From a virus: a stretch of 35,126 nucleotides of DNA. Below are positions 18,394-30,929 of this stretch, in pieces. Location of the stretch: positions 1-35,126 of IMG/VR virus record IMGVR_UViG_3300008259_000103; one strand, given 5' to 3'. Within the stretch, counting starts at the first letter, position 1. Every line of letters starts with the position of its first letter. The position numbers were made by a program, and so were the translations under genes. The notes below the pieces were generated by a model. The model saw nothing but the letters and a program-made list of their open reading frames with translations, ran no database searches and was not told the origin of the DNA.

Positions 18394-19047
18394 TTACAAT
18401 AATGTATCGAGTCGGTTCATCATGATTTTGCAATAATCCCAATCAATTTCGTAACCTTCACAATTATAACCGAGTTTTCTTGCTACTGCCAGTGTAGTTC
18501 CACTTCCAGCAAACACATCAATAATGCGTTGTCCCGGTTTTGCAGTGGTTAATATTATTCTCCGTATTATTTCTTCAGGTATTTGACAAGGATGTCCAGT
18601 CTTTTCTTTACTGGTGTTTTTCACTTGATTGATTTCCCACCAGTCATATAATTTTGCACCTAATTTACCTTCCGATATGCGCTTTTGAATTCTTTTGTCA
18701 TTAAGATTTTTGTATGGTTGTCGCACTTTAGATAAATCAGGCTTACATCCCCACCATGAAATTAGACGACTTTGCTTTCCGGTGTTGCTATTATATACCC
18801 AAGTAACCACTTGTTCGCATTTTACTTTTAGAGCCTTAGGCAGAATATTTATGGTTTCTTCTGGATAATGAATAATTACACATGGCAACGGTATTGCAGC
18901 CAATAGATTAATGTAATCTTCTTCATTAAGTTTGTCTTTATATTTACCATAGTGGTAATTTTGATTGTAAGGTGGATCTGTGATTACCAATCCTTCCGGT
19001 ATGTCCCAATTTCTAAAATCATCATTTACAGTTGCGTAATAGCTCAT
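18394..19047 (-). CDS. DNA adenine- or cytosine-N4 methyltransferase, beta class
   Basis: The 217-residue protein has motif IV DPPY (residues 24-27) near the N-terminus and motif I FAGSGTT (179-185) near the C-terminus, with IDVFAGSGTTLAVARKLGYNC typical of AdoMet binding. The order IV then I marks the beta class of amino-methyltransferases. HPCQIPEEIIRRII (152-165) is the usual motif X context. It lacks a restriction partner nearby, so it is best read as an orphan modification enzyme that protects phage DNA or marks it. Its ATG overlaps the stop of the 49-aa gene upstream. Target sequence cannot be read from the protein. Confidence 0.9.
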   Translation of the reverse strand: MSYYATVNDDFRNWDIPEGLVITDPPYNQNYHYGKYKDKLNEEDYINLLAAIPLPCVIIHYPEETINILPKALKVKCEQVVTWVYNSNTGKQSRLISWWGCKPDLSKVRQPYKNLNDKRIQKRISEGKLGAKLYDWWEINQVKNTSKEKTGHPCQIPEEIIRRIILTTAKPGQRIIDVFAGSGTTLAVARKLGYNCEGYEIDWDYCKIMMNRLDTLL

Positions 19048-19193
19048 TTGTATATTGGATTTTGAGTTAACTTAAACAGGCGCTTGTTTATGCGCTGCAT
19101 TCTGTGTTGTGCTTTCACTGCTTCGGACCTGAGGATGTCGTGTCGCTCACGTCGCAGGAGGCAAATCTCCTCGGCTTGTTCTTGTGTGTACAT
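19044..19193 (-). CDS. Tiny protein (49 aa) coupled to the methyltransferase
   Basis: Start ATG at 19193; stop TGA overlaps the methyltransferase ATG (ATGA). The protein starts MYTQEQAEEICLLRRERHDI and ends NPIYK and is one charged amphipathic helix with many Arg and Lys. It is the first of a block of four tiny coupled genes upstream of the methyltransferase. Function unknown. Confidence 0.6.
   Translation of the reverse strand: MYTQEQAEEICLLRRERHDILRSEAVKAQHRMQRINKRLFKLTQNPIYK
19049..19062 (-). repeat. Repeated translation leader, copy 2
   Basis: The same 14 bases as at 18375-18388 stand two bases upstream of the methyltransferase start. Here they also code for the end of the 49-aa protein. 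Confidence 0.6.
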
Positions 19194-19194
19194 G

Positions 19195-19413
19195 TTAAAC
19201 TTTTAGATTGTGTAGTTCGTTTTCAATTTGTATCCAGTAGCTGTGGAATTCAGGTGAGCAGTGTTGCTGCATTTGATTCGCAAATATTATGGCAGACATA
19301 AGGGCGGCGTCGACTCTTCTTCTGCGGCCTTGAAGTGTGAAGTCGTTGGTGAGGTCTGCGAGCATGTCGTAGTACTCCTCGAAAAGGTTCCGAGCGTGGT
19401 CTTCTGTTGTCAT
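19195..19413 (-). CDS. Tiny protein (72 aa) with C-terminus related to its upstream neighbour
   Basis: I start it at ATG 19413 (MTTEDHARNLFEEYYDMLAD), overlapping the upstream stop by ATGA. A longer frame from 19578 runs antiparallel to nothing but crosses two better frames. The protein is helical and acidic. It ends WIQIENELHNLKV, and the neighbour's end is LIQIQDELHIQNLKK, so the C-terminal halves look duplicated. Unknown function. Confidence 0.6.
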   Translation of the reverse strand: MTTEDHARNLFEEYYDMLADLTNDFTLQGRRRRVDAALMSAIIFANQMQQHCSPEFHSYWIQIENELHNLKV

Positions 19414-19571
19414 TTTTTCAAGTTTTGAATGTGAAGTTCGTCTTGTATTTGGATGAGTTGCCTGCGCAATTTTGAGCAGTGCGACTTGTCCTGCGCTGGT
19501 GTTGAGAGTAGCTTCCACCGGAGCATCCGGAGCTGATCTATTGATAGCTCTGTCATCTGTTTGCGTGTCAT
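19410..19571 (-). CDS. Tiny protein (53 aa) with the shared IQI-DELH-NLK end
   Basis: ATG 19571 overlaps the stop of the 68-aa gene; its TGA overlaps the ATG of the 72-aa gene (ATGA). It begins MTRKQMTELSIDQLRMLRWK and ends with QIQDELHIQNLKK. This frame is much better than the overlapping one from 19578 because both ends fit coupled initiation. Basic, helical, unknown family. Confidence 0.6.
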   Translation of the reverse strand: MTRKQMTELSIDQLRMLRWKLLSTPAQDKSHCSKLRRQLIQIQDELHIQNLKK

Positions 19572-19774
19572 TTGTCACCTCCGTATGTTTCGATTAATTC
19601 AAGTTGCCACCATCTCGGCTGTATTATTTGGCAGTTCATAGATGTATCTACTTTACCACCCCACACAATGTTAGTTATCTTGTATTTGATTGGATTCAAC
19701 TCTACTACTACGCCTTCATAGTAGCAGTCACCGTCTTCTATATCTCTTATTTTACTTCCTATTTCTAATTTCAT
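19568..19774 (-). CDS. Small beta-rich protein (68 aa)
   Basis: MKLEIGSKIRDIEDGDCYYE, then GVVVELNPIKYKITNIVWGG and WWQLELIETYGGDK. Length, Gly turns and the G-D-C-Y/G-V-V pattern suggest a small SH3-like or Tudor-like barrel of the kind that reads or binds nucleic acid, but this is only a shape impression. It overlaps the next tiny gene by 4 bases and starts 15 bases after the PAPS-reductase-like gene. Confidence 0.65.
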   Translation of the reverse strand: MKLEIGSKIRDIEDGDCYYEGVVVELNPIKYKITNIVWGGKVDTSMNCQIIQPRWWQLELIETYGGDK

Positions 19775-19789
19775 TCGTCACCTCCTTTA

Positions 19790-20614
19790 TTAATCTGTGC
19801 AAAATCCAGCTTGGCAACCAGAACCTTCTCCAAAATTAAAGTCTTGCTGTAAACCTATTTTTTTAATTTGCTCATATTTCATTTCCTTCTTCCATCTGGC
19901 GTTTATCTCTTGGTCTGAAAACCATTGCATTTTTTCGGGCTCGTCTTCAAAATTTCTGCGCAATTGCTGCAACGATTTATGAAAACAACCTACACAATTA
20001 CTATCAGGTGGAAAAATAAGACCACTTTGATCTGCCCATTGTTTAACATGATAATGCATAATTTTATTTTCAATCAAAGGAAAGTATCCTTCTCGCCATT
20101 CTATTTCTGCCCATTTGTTTTTGTTTCCTGTTTTTGATTTGCCTACCACGCCTTTGAAAGAAGTAGATAAACGGTCAGCTCTTTCTAATTCATCATATCT
20201 AAAGCCAATGCCCATTTTGATTTTTTCATTAATATTTTTAAACCACCAGTCCCAAATAGGTCTTATTTTCATTTCGGTTGTACAAAACCTCCATTGTTGA
20301 TTTGGTAGTCCTTTTCCACCTGTATTTTTTCTGTTTACTTTTTCAAAAGTTTCTCCGGAAACCCAGATAATTTCCTTACCTATTTTTTGTTCTAAATCAA
20401 GCATTACCTTTAAAGTTAAGTCACTTTCAGCAGTGCCAATAAATTCTGCTCCAATCTTATCTGAAACAATCCGTACCAGGCCTTCGTCTTTTGGTTTGCA
20501 GTGTAATGCCTCTATTTTTACTAAGGAAAAAATATTATAGTCTGCTGGGTAGTGTGCGGCCATATATGACGATGTTTTGCCGCCAGAAAGAGAATTCACG
20601 ATTATTTGACTCAT
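19790..20614 (-). CDS. PP-loop / PAPS-reductase-like ATP pyrophosphatase
   Basis: ATG 20614 is chosen because the site AAGGAGGTG lies just upstream and the codon overlaps the upstream stop. The 274-residue protein has a PP-loop NSLSGGKTSSYMA (about residues 7-19), which binds ATP for adenylation of a substrate. Cys residues sit at 39, 111 (RFCTTEMKIRPI), 207 and 210 (NCVGC) and 267 and 272 (GCQAGFC), enough to hold an iron-sulfur cluster as in DndC or TtcA-type enzymes. Phage PAPS-reductase-like proteins often occur with ParB-like proteins (the IbrA/IbrB pair), and a ParB-methyltransferase is encoded at 29751. Substrate unknown: sulfate reduction, base or RNA thiolation are all possible. Confidence 0.8.
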   Translation of the reverse strand: MSQIIVNSLSGGKTSSYMAAHYPADYNIFSLVKIEALHCKPKDEGLVRIVSDKIGAEFIGTAESDLTLKVMLDLEQKIGKEIIWVSGETFEKVNRKNTGGKGLPNQQWRFCTTEMKIRPIWDWWFKNINEKIKMGIGFRYDELERADRLSTSFKGVVGKSKTGNKNKWAEIEWREGYFPLIENKIMHYHVKQWADQSGLIFPPDSNCVGCFHKSLQQLRRNFEDEPEKMQWFSDQEINARWKKEMKYEQIKKIGLQQDFNFGEGSGCQAGFCTD

Positions 20615-20883
20615 GGCTTCACCTCCTTCTCTTGTGGGGTCCACTTGACCTGCTCCTTCTTTAGATTTGCTATGACGGTTTGAATAATTAGCTCCTCGAG
20701 CACGTCAGAAAGTGGCTCTTCATTTGCCTCGTAGATTAGTGCTACGTCAAAACTCACGCTTCCATTTGTCGTTCGCATTAGCTCAAACTTCCAGTTGGTG
20801 CGGTCCGTGAGAGGTAGCGCCATTGTAATGCTTCCACAGAAGTACTCCGTGCGCTTGTGTGGTTTGGTGTCGATGTTTATCAT
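20611..20883 (-). CDS. Hypothetical protein (90 aa)
   Basis: It starts MINIDTKPHKRTEYFCGSIT and ends PQEKEVKP with the AAGGAGGTG site for the downstream PP-loop gene embedded in its last codons. ATGA overlap on both sides. Acidic and soluble, mixed beta then helix; unknown family. Confidence 0.6.
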   Translation of the reverse strand: MINIDTKPHKRTEYFCGSITMALPLTDRTNWKFELMRTTNGSVSFDVALIYEANEEPLSDVLEELIIQTVIANLKKEQVKWTPQEKEVKP

Positions 20884-21413
20884 ATGTGTTTGATTTTTTG
20901 CTTGTATATTTTGATTAATTCCTTCATCTGGTCTACACTCAGGCGCAGTGGCTGTATCCTGCGTGCATATAGGTTGTCGTATGCTGGACCTCCGATTCTT
21001 TTCAGCAGGTGCTCACCGTACTCGATAAGATTCCCGTGTTTGTGTTGGTTGCACTCTACGCATTGCCCGTGAACGTTGTCCTCGTCAAAGCGCAGGTTCG
21101 GGTAGCTGCCAACGCTGAAGTAATGCCCTGCATCGTACTTTCCGGTCAAAGGTTTACCACAGCTGATACATGGGGACATTTTGTCCCTCTCTCGGATGAA
21201 CTTGTTGAATACCTGCTGGAGTTCTTTCCGGTAGTCGCTGAGTGTTTTAATCTTCTCACGCATCCGTTTGATTTCCGTGCTTGCCTCTTTTGCTTTAGTT
21301 CTCTTTGCGTACTGGAGGACACAGCTAACCTTTGTGCAGGTTGGCTGCAGGGTGCTGATGGTAGGCATGAATCTTTCTCGGCACACCTTACATGTTTTTG
21401 GTTTCTGCTTCAT
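20880..21413 (-). CDS. ninG: NinG-type recombination nuclease
   Basis: The 177-residue protein is a close fit to lambda NinG (Rap). A Cys pair CKVCRERF near the N-terminus is followed by a KRMREKIKTLSDYRKELQ helix, then PCISCGKPLTGKYDAGHYFSVGSYPNLRFDEDNVHGQCVECN. The paired Cys motifs hold zinc and the DAGHY/N-H segment is the HNH-like site. NinG proteins resolve branched DNA in phage recombination. It fits with the YqaJ-like exonuclease and annealing protein a few genes upstream. Overlaps both neighbours by 4 bases. Confidence 0.9.
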   Translation of the reverse strand: MKQKPKTCKVCRERFMPTISTLQPTCTKVSCVLQYAKRTKAKEASTEIKRMREKIKTLSDYRKELQQVFNKFIRERDKMSPCISCGKPLTGKYDAGHYFSVGSYPNLRFDEDNVHGQCVECNQHKHGNLIEYGEHLLKRIGGPAYDNLYARRIQPLRLSVDQMKELIKIYKQKIKHI

Positions 21414-21596: not shown

Positions 21597-22955
21597 TTAA
21601 AAAGGAACTTGTGAAGTTTTTGATGGGTCTGTGTAGCGCATAATATTCGGGTGGAAACGCATGGGGGCAATACCTGTCGATCCGTTGCGCTGCTTGGCGA
21701 CAATATATTCTCCAATCCCAGTCAGATCGTTACCTGCTTCGTCTCTGGTGATGCCATAGTATTCTGGGCGAAAAAGGAAAACCACTACGTCGGCGTCCTG
21801 CTCCAAAGATCCACTCTCGCGCAGGTCGGATAGCATAGGGCGCTTCTCCGCTCTGGATTCTACTGCCCTTGATAGCTGGCTCAGCGCAATCACAGAGATG
21901 TCGCACTCCTTTGCAATCAACTTCAGGTTGCGGCTTATAACGCTAAGCTCCTGTTCTCGGTTCTGGCCTTGGCGTCGGAGCTGGACCCCGGAGCTCATGA
22001 GTTGGACGTAGTCGATGAACACAGCCTCGACCTTGTGCTTCTCGACCATGTGCTTGACGCGTGCCCGAAGGTCAAAAACCGAAAGGCCAGCGGTGTCGTC
22101 AATGTAAATGGGCAGTGCGTTTATAATATCCCGGTAGTGGTAAAAGCTCTGCATCTCTTCCTTTGTGAGTCTGTACTTCATCAGCCTGCCACCATCGATA
22201 CCGCTTATCATGGAGATTAAGCGCAGCACTATCTGGGTGCTGGACATCTCCAAGGAGAAAAGTGCAACTGGTGTGTTTTTAAGGGCCATGTTCAGCATCT
22301 CGGTAAGGGCCATGGCTGTTTTACCCATCGAAGGTCTGCCTGCCATGTAAAGGAGGTCGCTTTTCTGGTGGCCTCCGATAAGCAAGTCAACTGATGAGAT
22401 ACCGGAGCTGAGTCCTGTAACGCCGCTTTCGCAAGTTTCACGTGCAACAACCACCTCGGTGACCTTTGCGGTTAGTTCTGCTATGTGCGAGATGTTTGTC
22501 TTCACCGACGTGTTAAAGGTTGAGGTCATCTGGCTCATAAAGCGGTCGTGAATCTCAAAGACGTCAGCGGTCGAATCATACGAAAACTCGTTCACTTGTG
22601 CGCTTATCCGGGCGAACTCTCGCTTCATATAGTGCTCATTCAGGATTGAGCACCAGTGCTCGAGGTTAGCGGTGGATGCCACCCGGTTGGTGAGCTTTGC
22701 AATAAAAGCTGCTCCTCCGCACTGATCCAAAAAACCCCTTTTCCGAGCCTGCTGGGTTACGGTTAGGAGGTCGATTGGCTTGTTCTCGATATAGAGCTCA
22801 ACGATACGTTCGTAAATTGAGGCCATACGCCCGTCATAAAACCGCTCTGGCGTGATGAGTGGCATCACAATGCCAGCGGCAGCGTTTTCGAGCAATATTG
22901 CGCCTAAAACGAGCTCCTCGAGTTCAGTGTCGTGTGGGGGGACTCTGTTAATCAT
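21597..22955 (-). CDS. dnaB: DnaB-type replicative helicase
   Basis: The 452-residue protein has the DnaB N-terminal domain (MINRVPPHDTELEELVLGAI and PLITPERFYDGRMASIYERI), a linker and a RecA-like motor. Walker A is GRPSMGKT (206-213), a SLEMSSTQIVLRLIS segment follows, Walker B is FIDYVQLM (313-320), and the H4-type region holds LSQLSRAVESRAEKRPMLSDLRESGSLEQDADVV. It unwinds DNA ahead of the replisome. It overlaps the upstream loader-like gene by 4 bases. Length is normal. Confidence 0.95.
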   Translation of the reverse strand: MINRVPPHDTELEELVLGAILLENAAAGIVMPLITPERFYDGRMASIYERIVELYIENKPIDLLTVTQQARKRGFLDQCGGAAFIAKLTNRVASTANLEHWCSILNEHYMKREFARISAQVNEFSYDSTADVFEIHDRFMSQMTSTFNTSVKTNISHIAELTAKVTEVVVARETCESGVTGLSSGISSVDLLIGGHQKSDLLYMAGRPSMGKTAMALTEMLNMALKNTPVALFSLEMSSTQIVLRLISMISGIDGGRLMKYRLTKEEMQSFYHYRDIINALPIYIDDTAGLSVFDLRARVKHMVEKHKVEAVFIDYVQLMSSGVQLRRQGQNREQELSVISRNLKLIAKECDISVIALSQLSRAVESRAEKRPMLSDLRESGSLEQDADVVVFLFRPEYYGITRDEAGNDLTGIGEYIVAKQRNGSTGIAPMRFHPNIMRYTDPSKTSQVPF

Positions 22956-29610: not shown

Positions 29611-29754
29611 ATGCCAATACCAACACCTAAACTAAATGAGCAGCGCGACGAATATATCGGACGCTGTATGTCTGACCCTAAAATGATGACAGAGTATACA
29701 GATTCAAAACAGCGCTACGCCATTTGCATCAACAGATACCAAGAACAGAAATGA
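29611..29754 (+). CDS. Small conserved phage protein (47 aa), RCM..QRYAIC type
   Basis: MPIPTPKLNEQRDEYIGRCM then SDPKMMTEYTDSKQRYAICI and an ending with YQEQK. The pattern (E/D-I-RCM-D..M..EY-D..QR-AIC) is a small family commonly encoded near capsid or protease genes in Bacteroidetes phages. Here it is coupled by ATGA to the ParB-methyltransferase fusion. Function unknown. Confidence 0.6.
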   Translation: MPIPTPKLNEQRDEYIGRCMSDPKMMTEYTDSKQRYAICINRYQEQK

Positions 29755-30929
29755 ACAGCACCCTGACCCCTCTTGCCCAGATAAAGGCAAATCCTAACAA
29801 CCCGAGAACTATCAAGGACGTCAAGTTCAAGAAGCTCGTCGAGTCTATCCGGACCTTTCCAAAGATGCTCGAACTGCGCCCCATAGTCGTCAACGATGAC
29901 ATGGTGGTCCTCGGAGGCAACATGCGCCTGAAGGCATGCAAGGAGGCAGGCATCAAGGAGGTGCCAGTGATCAAGGCCAGCGACCTTTCGGAGGAAGAAC
30001 AGCGCCAGTTCATAATCAAGGACAACGTCGGCTTCGGAGACTGGGACTGGGAGATGCTCGCAAACGAGTGGGACGTCGCCGAGCTGGACGCATGGGGCAT
30101 GGAGCTTCCCAAGGACATGTTCGGAACGGATAACGAGGTGGTCGAAGATGAGGTTCCCGAGATACCCGAGGAGCCAGTCACCAAGCCCGGTGACCTTTGG
30201 ATCCTCGGAAACCATCGTCTGCTGTGCGGTGACTCCACAAACACCCAGCACGTCGACCGCTTGATGAATAAAGAGCAGGCGGACCTGATCTTCACGGATC
30301 CACCTTGGAATGTGAACTATGGAGCGCAAAAGAACAATGGCATCTGGGGCAAGCAGCAGAGGACCATTCTCAATGACCACATGGACGACGACAAGTGGGA
30401 CGAGTTCGTCGCAGGGTTTTGTGCCAGCTTCTTTATTGCATCCAAGCCCGGTGCGCCTATCTACGTGGTGATGTCGGCACAGGAGTGGCCATCGCTTCAG
30501 TTCAATCTTCTCAAGTCTGGATTCCACTGGTCTTCGACAATAATTTGGAAAAAGGACAGCTTGGTCATCTCTCGCAAAGATTACCACACTCAGTACGAAC
30601 CTATTTGGTATGGGTGGAACGACAAGGCGCCTCGCTTAGTTCAAGTAGAAGACCGCAAGCAGTCCGATGTATGGGAAGTGGCACGTCCCAAGGTATCGGA
30701 GCTACACCCAACCACAAAGCCCGTCGAGCTGGTCGCCAGAGCCTTGAACAACTCCTCCAAGGCAGGCGGCCTCGTTCTTGACCTGTTCGGCGGTTCCGGG
30801 TCCACCATGATTGCCTGTGAACAGACGGGTCGCAAGAATTGCAGCATGGAGCTGGATCCTAAGTACTGCGACGTCATCGTCAAGCGTTGGGAGAACCTCA
30901 CAGGCCAGAAAGCCATCCTTGAAAAATAG
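29751..30929 (+). CDS. ParB-like nuclease domain fused to DNA methyltransferase
   Basis: ATG 29751 (MNSTLTPLAQIKANPNNPRT) is chosen; it overlaps the 47-aa stop. The ParB-like N-terminus (about 8-95) has NPNNPRTIKD, ELRPIVVNDDMVVLGGNMR and PVIKASDLSEEEQRQFIIKD with the G-GN-RL helix of ParB/Srx folds. After a linker come GDLWILGNHRLLCGDS, motif IV DPPW (183-186) and motif I DLFGGSGST (344-352), again beta class. HPTTKPVELVARAL is the motif X region. Such fusions modify adenine or N4-cytosine and may read specific DNA. It has higher GC than its neighbours (clear from wobble positions with C and G). Confidence 0.9.
   Translation: MNSTLTPLAQIKANPNNPRTIKDVKFKKLVESIRTFPKMLELRPIVVNDDMVVLGGNMRLKACKEAGIKEVPVIKASDLSEEEQRQFIIKDNVGFGDWDWEMLANEWDVAELDAWGMELPKDMFGTDNEVVEDEVPEIPEEPVTKPGDLWILGNHRLLCGDSTNTQHVDRLMNKEQADLIFTDPPWNVNYGAQKNNGIWGKQQRTILNDHMDDDKWDEFVAGFCASFFIASKPGAPIYVVMSAQEWPSLQFNLLKSGFHWSSTIIWKKDSLVISRKDYHTQYEPIWYGWNDKAPRLVQVEDRKQSDVWEVARPKVSELHPTTKPVELVARALNNSSKAGGLVLDLFGGSGSTMIACEQTGRKNCSMELDPKYCDVIVKRWENLTGQKAILEK

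Follow-up and report, generated by a model that had tools for sequence, protein, structure and literature searches.

A phage PP-loop protein resembling SspD and a stand-alone DNA methyltransferase carried as separate cassettes in a coupled replication operon

The virus record IMGVR_UViG_3300008259_000103, analysed here over its full 35,126 bases and referred to below as the window, contains a run of genes on the minus strand (22955 down to 18026) in which a PP-loop protein and a beta-class DNA methyltransferase are separated by a few very small genes. The block belongs to a replication/recombination operon of the phage that is translationally coupled and carries two separately acquired cassettes, one with each enzyme. 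The two enzymes have been gained, lost or exchanged separately, and the block is not one functional unit. As judged from its motifs and profile matches, the PP-loop protein follows the plan of an SspD-like nucleic-acid sulfurtransferase and not that of CysH, SspD being the PP-loop subunit of the SspABCD system of DNA phosphorothioation. The explanation that is favoured as a whole, in which a mosaic operon carries an SspD-like sulfurtransferase and an independent methyltransferase, stands just short of an even chance of holding in all its parts.

Two cassettes in a coupled operon

From 22955 downwards, the run encodes DnaB, a 60-residue protein, NinG, g90, the PP-loop protein, proteins of 68, 53, 72 and 49 residues, the methyltransferase and a 115-residue protein (Table 1). 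Gene calls bear out the block at 20614–18394 to which a first-pass annotation had drawn attention, namely six genes from the methyltransferase to the PP-loop gene, all on the minus strand; its location and coupling stand, but the small genes between the two enzymes number four, not five. The junctions are mostly 4-nucleotide overlaps of the ATGA type, the exceptions being a 1-nucleotide gap between the 49- and 72-residue genes and a 15-nucleotide gap, with a strong Shine–Dalgarno sequence, between the 68-residue and PP-loop genes. The coupling runs on upstream through g90, NinG and the 60-residue gene up to DnaB, such that the upper edge of the block is arbitrary.

Relatives of the operon, given L numbers, were gathered by an IMG/VR search with NinG, which yielded 80 related loci. 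One of these, L123 (NinG 80% identical), has the backbone together with the 53-, 72-, 49- and 115-residue genes, with the PP-loop, 68-residue and methyltransferase genes all absent; in other words, it is an empty site for both cassettes. In L123, g90 directly overlaps the 53-residue gene and the 49-residue gene directly overlaps the 115-residue gene, and it is exactly at these two junctions that the cassettes of the window are placed. Each AT-rich cassette is inserted precisely at a start/stop junction with the coupling preserved, the PP-loop, 68-residue and methyltransferase genes having a G + C (GC) content of 35–36%, as against 46–51% for the backbone. Since the cassettes sit at overlap junctions that are already present in L123, the coupling is a property of the recipient operon and no proof of joint function. 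Indeed, the comparison shows phages adding entire enzyme genes where start and stop codons overlap in a coupled operon, and tight overlap in one genome is therefore no evidence of shared function.

The close relative L122 matches the window in NinG (94–95% identity) and g90 (98%), but its PP-loop protein is only 65–67% identical to that of the window and its 68-residue protein 62%; the methyltransferase and the 53-residue gene are both missing from L122. At the nucleotide level, identity between the two is 85–99% over most of the stretch from DnaB to g90 (with a minimum of 73–76% at the start of NinG), drops to 54–71% within the PP-loop gene past its first ~60 nucleotides and partially recovers afterwards. 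The PP-loop alleles of the window and L122 fall in different clades, and a tree that joins them in one clade is rejected (approximately unbiased test, AU p 0.00055).

Other relatives fill the same region differently. In L136 and L143 the methyltransferase (74%) occupies what is the PP-loop slot in the window, a C5-cytosine methyltransferase lies between NinG and g90, beside the PP-loop slot, in L131, L182 and L197, and further relatives have unrelated small genes. A separate observation is that in three loci (L128:4300-4746, L129:7068-7514 and L171:4191-4637) the PP-loop slot is filled by a 148-residue gene with a GFSAGG motif resembling an alpha/beta hydrolase, an odd cargo for a phage.

The methyltransferase and the ParB fusion

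The methyltransferase matches Pfam PF01555 (E 3.3e-29) and phrog_67, and the order of its motifs as read from the sequence, DPPY before DVFAGSGTT (FxGxG), marks it as an N6/N4 DNA methyltransferase of the beta class, the class that the first-pass annotation had given. The DPPY motif favours N6-adenine as the target. Stand-alone phage enzymes of this class share the PF01555 match and the motif order, with relatives ~75% identical, and differ from it in no notable way. Its 219 viral relatives occur in other, often larger, phages; among the 79 of these loci that were fetched, the PP-loop gene is found in the flanks only in the window's own phage.

A ParB–methyltransferase fusion, which had been offered as the second half of an IbrA/IbrB-like pair with the PP-loop protein, does exist, ~9 kb from the PP-loop gene and on the opposite strand. 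The fusion is, however, also present, at 86–90% identity, in L135, L136 and L143, which have no PP-loop gene. More generally, ParB occurs in 11 of the 33 records with the PP-loop gene and in 5 of the 22 without it (Fisher p 0.55), virus records being fragments, such that all partner counts given here are lower bounds. The 22 were related records chosen as lacking the PP-loop family, an absence to which a control search with working positive controls attests. With no significant difference between the two groups, ParB was rejected as a PP-loop partner, and the proposed pair lacks support.

It is in this light that a joint pathway is to be weighed, in which methyltransferase, small genes and PP-loop protein would make up one thiolation-plus-methylation system with the ParB–methyltransferase in an IbrB-like role. 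The tight gene coupling in the window genome speaks for such a pathway, but the cassettes assort independently, only one of the 79 methyltransferase loci has a PP-loop gene nearby and there is no ParB association, all of which makes it very improbable indeed. The two enzymes are separate, exchangeable insertions, each being found in close relatives, and in hundreds of further phages, that lack the other one. What survives of the first-pass annotation in this regard is nucleic-acid modification as a fair guess, in keeping with the SspD-like plan and the N6/N4 methyltransferase, and not the single combined system.

The SspD-like plan of the PP-loop protein

All 22 family members that were tested match the PADLOC model of SspD (best E 1.5e-12), with weaker matches to DndC. 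The window protein itself matches the SspD profile with E 3.3e-8 over residues 68–239, and a profile–profile comparison of the family with bacterial SspD gives a probability of 96% and E 4.4e-9 in the N-terminal half. The SspDs used as reference were six bacterial proteins drawn from Ssp operons, for example that of Sphingobacterium sp. N143 (SspA 8.5e-151, SspB 1.6e-89, SspC, SspD 5.3e-91) and the SspC and SspD of Chryseobacterium sp. SN22.

The loop SGGKTS (S10, G12, K13, T14, S15) is invariant in the family. The window protein has six cysteines, C39, C111, C207, C210, C267 and C272, five of which are found in every full-length homologue and C39 in nearly all, so that the six candidate cysteines pointed out earlier are all conserved. 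When aligned with the SspDs, C111 coincides with the Cys in RWCTxxLK, C207 and C210 with the CxxC, and C267 with the leading Cys of the terminal pair; C272 lies 2 columns past the second member of that pair. In other words, four of the cysteines (C111, C207, C210 and C267) match invariant ones of SspD, both proteins have a second C-terminal Cys, and the SspD type of plan (a single RxCT Cys, a CxxC and a C-terminal Cys pair) is there with a different spacing of the final pair, Cx4C in the family and Cx2C in SspD. Family and SspD/DndC also have in common the PP-loop core, the RxCTxx(L/M)K form of the first motif, the position of the Cys pair at the very end of the chain and the motifs LP(S/N), G(I/F)RxDE and FPL(I/V)EN; C39 is an extra conserved Cys of the family relative to SspD. 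Two more PP-loop proteins of a Siphonobacter genome (L303 and L307) carry RFCTxxLKxxP together with a CxxC and, close to the C terminus, a pair of cysteines, which shows that the Cys plan is broader than SspD and the phage family.

The window protein matches phrog_424, named PAPS (phosphoadenosine phosphosulfate) reductase, with E 4.2e-27, and has no Pfam or NCBIfam match. The same phrog includes a protein of Cellulophaga phage phi19:3 (49.5% identical over 99%), the closest phage isolate. Sulfate assimilation, as implied by the phrog name, finds no support in the Cys plan of the family. CysH proteins share with the family the PP-loop fold and a CxxC in the same region. CysH proteins from the same bacterial genomes show ENRKECC, GCxPC and ECGLH; the family has neither the CC pair, which belongs to the CC...CxxC cluster of the APS (adenosine phosphosulfate) type of reductase, nor the catalytic ECGLH tail, and none of its 22 members matches the Pfam model PAPS_reduct (PF01507) at E up to 1.

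An AlphaFold2 model of the window protein has a PP-loop fold with a disordered tail and a mean predicted local distance difference test score (pLDDT) of 82.5. Fold and conserved SGGxxS loop together place it in the PP-loop ATP pyrophosphatase fold. A sequence-profile search of solved structures gave no match for the protein. In a VIA-align comparison the model lies among PP-loop enzymes with Z of 9–10.7, CysH being tied with the [4Fe-4S] enzymes LarE, NcsA and TtuA, and a family missing from the list of fold matches was not counted as excluded. LarE, NcsA and TtuA bind their cluster through three cysteines, for which the window protein has three candidates by sequence.

The reading in which the PP-loop protein is instead an auxiliary metabolic enzyme, an assimilatory reductase of PAPS or APS that boosts cysteine and methionine synthesis, has on its side the phrog name, the fold match to CysH structures (Z ~10) and the custom of virome work, where genes of this sort in viruses are as a rule assigned to sulfate assimilation (PMC7785012). 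It is quite improbable when set against the missing PF01507 matches, the absence of the CysH signatures noted above and a neighbourhood of replication/recombination genes in place of sulfur metabolism. Lone SspD/DndC-like genes called by PADLOC are listed, with no function given, in Sinorhizobium phiLM21-like prophages (PMC12429752); these have other hosts, carry methyltransferases elsewhere in the same prophages and are likened to the present genes by description, their affiliation being left open by the authors of that study. A search of the accessible literature brought up no functional test of an SspD-like phage protein that occurs alone.

Proposed function and its alternatives

That the PP-loop protein performs SspD-like sulfur chemistry is likely. 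It would be a compact sulfurtransferase of the SspD/DndC type, binding ATP at SGGKTS. A three-Cys [4Fe-4S] centre and a Cys dyad that relays sulfur have been described for DndC (PMC10853773), and by analogy with DndC the residues C111, C207 and C210 may hold a [4Fe-4S] cluster, with the C-terminal pair C267/C272 passing the sulfur on. The sulfur itself would be supplied by a cysteine desulfurase of the host, since no examined virus record carries one: none of the 33 records with the PP-loop gene has a match to PF00266, for which 14 of 14 control genomes were positive. The bacterial SspABCD system, by contrast, encodes its own desulfurase, SspA, a role that the host enzyme could serve here.

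The acceptor of the sulfur is a nucleic acid with a probability somewhat better than even. Phage DNA would be the first guess, the benefit being escape from host restriction or another DNA-directed defence, although an anti-restriction modification of phage DNA is a tentative proposal on which the balance tilts modestly to the negative. In a parallel but independent manner, the methyltransferase would place N6-methyladenine or N4-methylcytosine on phage DNA to similar benefit. The PP-loop gene sits in a variable slot that is filled in sister phages by other DNA methyltransferases.

Several points weigh against the SspD-like reading. SspD and DndC need the partners SspB and SspC, or DndD and DndE, for DNA modification. 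No Ssp or Dnd partner was identified near the PP-loop gene, the SspC model having been run on bacterial genomes only and the SspB control being silent: DUF4007 (SspB) has no match in the 33 records or in the control genomes. The family has no counterpart of the middle segment of SspD, being ~100 residues shorter, and its loop reads SGGKTS in place of the SGGKDS of SspD. In the model the Cys pair lies in a C-terminal tail whose pLDDT is 34, such that the assignment of cluster and relay comes from the alignment, and the Z values do not set CysH apart from thiolases. Necessarily, too, the predicted modification is a function read from sequence. As for the 68-residue gene of the same cassette, it was rejected as a PP-loop partner, with 21 of its 22 viral loci having no PP-loop gene in the fetched flanks and L122 being the only other joint site.

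An RNA target, with the PP-loop protein thiolating host or phage tRNA during infection in the manner of TtuA, NcsA or TtcA, is distinctly unlikely. The fold neighbours do include the three-Cys [4Fe-4S] tRNA thiolases NcsA and TtuA, as well as MnmA; against this, the best sequence relative is SspD, a subunit of a DNA-modification system, the window has no tRNA gene, and the slot is shared with DNA methyltransferases.

Similarly doubtful is a role in counter-defence, in which a lone SspD-like protein would compete with or poison the SspABCD of the host, or borrow its SspA, SspB and SspC to mark phage DNA. Among six bacterial genomes with a PP-loop relative, three carry a full-length SspD (L108, L111 and L118, in G057, G058 and G062), with SspC confirmed in two, as compared with the SspC marker in 20 of 395 Bacteroidota genomes (Fisher p 0.0026); the comparison, however, is between a small sample of six genomes from different orders, found by homology search, and a set counted by another marker. 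Moreover, one of the PP-loop relatives is just 29% identical, and three of the six genomes have no Ssp partner.

A bolder form of the SspD-like reading, in which a single small SspD/DndC-type phage protein and a host desulfurase would thiolate phage nucleic acid with no DNA-scanning partners, is unlikely. If true, it would amount to a minimal viral thiolation system in hundreds of phages, probably infecting Bacteroidota, that is swapped as a plug-in cassette and either protects the DNA of the phage against host nucleases or misleads defences that sense phosphorothioation.

Spread of the family

The remaining interest of the block is in a large phage family that appears to resemble a stripped-down SspD. 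A pattern scan finds PP-loop relatives in at least 536 IMG/VR contigs. A search of 84,980 species of bacteria and archaea gave 13 related loci, most of them from Bacteroidota and several in a phage-like context, such that no cellular donor of the gene is seen; sampling of 395 Bacteroidota genomes found only the one genome already known. The carrier phages probably infect Bacteroidota, the host group that the relatives also suggest for the phage of the window. Virome surveys routinely place viral ‘PAPS reductase’ genes in sulfur metabolism. The sequence plan of the present family points instead to sulfur transfer of the SspD type, a reading under which the family would belong to phage–host conflict and no longer to the ecology of sulfate assimilation.

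By eye, the PP-loop relatives in Kordia (L112:4677-6502) and Siphonobacter (L108:9069-9902) lie near apparent Gp37/Gp68-type three-Cys-motif proteins, with a possible TcmP partner beside that of Kordia.

Small genes and other features

Of the four small genes that separate the enzymes, three belong to the backbone and are present also where both enzymes are absent. The ratio of nonsynonymous to synonymous substitution rates (dN/dS) against relatives is 0.10–0.30 for these four and 0.02–0.30 in nearly all comparisons across the small genes of the run, and the corresponding small-gene frames turn up again in other contigs. All small genes of the block are under purifying selection and are no chance open reading frames.

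A 127-residue GTG-started frame (19195–19578) overlapping the 53-residue gene was set aside as the same frame opened too far, only its 72-residue ATG-started part being conserved in relatives. Pfam matches of the tiny proteins (MetOD1, DpnII-MboI, LinB), far under the cut-off, were dropped as chance.

Table 1. Coordinates of the operon genes and of related features; percentages with L numbers are identities to the window
Feature	Coordinates	Strand	Evidence and remarks
DnaB-type replicative helicase, backbone	21597..22955	-	98% in L122, 90% in L123; DNA similar to annotated DnaB-like phage helicase
Small backbone gene, 60 residues	21410..21592	-	92% in L122, 85% in L123
NinG/Rap recombination endonuclease, backbone	20880..21413	-	Pfam PF05766 E 1.7e-48
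g90, 90 residues, backbone, directly upstream of the insertion slot	20611..20883	-	98% in L122, 77–78% in L123
Cassette 1: SspD-like PP-loop protein, 274 residues	19790..20614	-	phrog_424, PADLOC SspD, AlphaFold2 model, shared Cys columns; 35.3% GC
Predicted small-barrel protein, 68 residues	19568..19774	-	36.2% GC; inserted with the PP-loop gene in the window and L122
Tiny backbone gene, 53 residues	19410..19571	-	in L123 (91%), absent from L122; dN/dS 0.14
Small backbone gene, 72 residues	19195..19413	-	conserved in close relatives as 72-residue form; dN/dS 0.10–0.13
Tiny backbone gene, 49 residues, no known family	19044..19193	-	69–73% in L122/L123; dN/dS 0.23–0.30
Cassette 2: predicted stand-alone beta-class N6/N4 DNA methyltransferase, 217 residues	18394..19047	-	PF01555, phrog_67; 35.3% GC
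Backbone gene below the methyltransferase, 115 residues	18026..18373	-	96% in L122, 91% in L123; dN/dS 0.02–0.04
ParB–methyltransferase fusion	29724..30929	+	phrog_498 E 1e-126; PF01555 + PF02195
C5-cytosine methyltransferase in sister phages	L131:1244-2248, L182:6537-7406, L197:3074-3955

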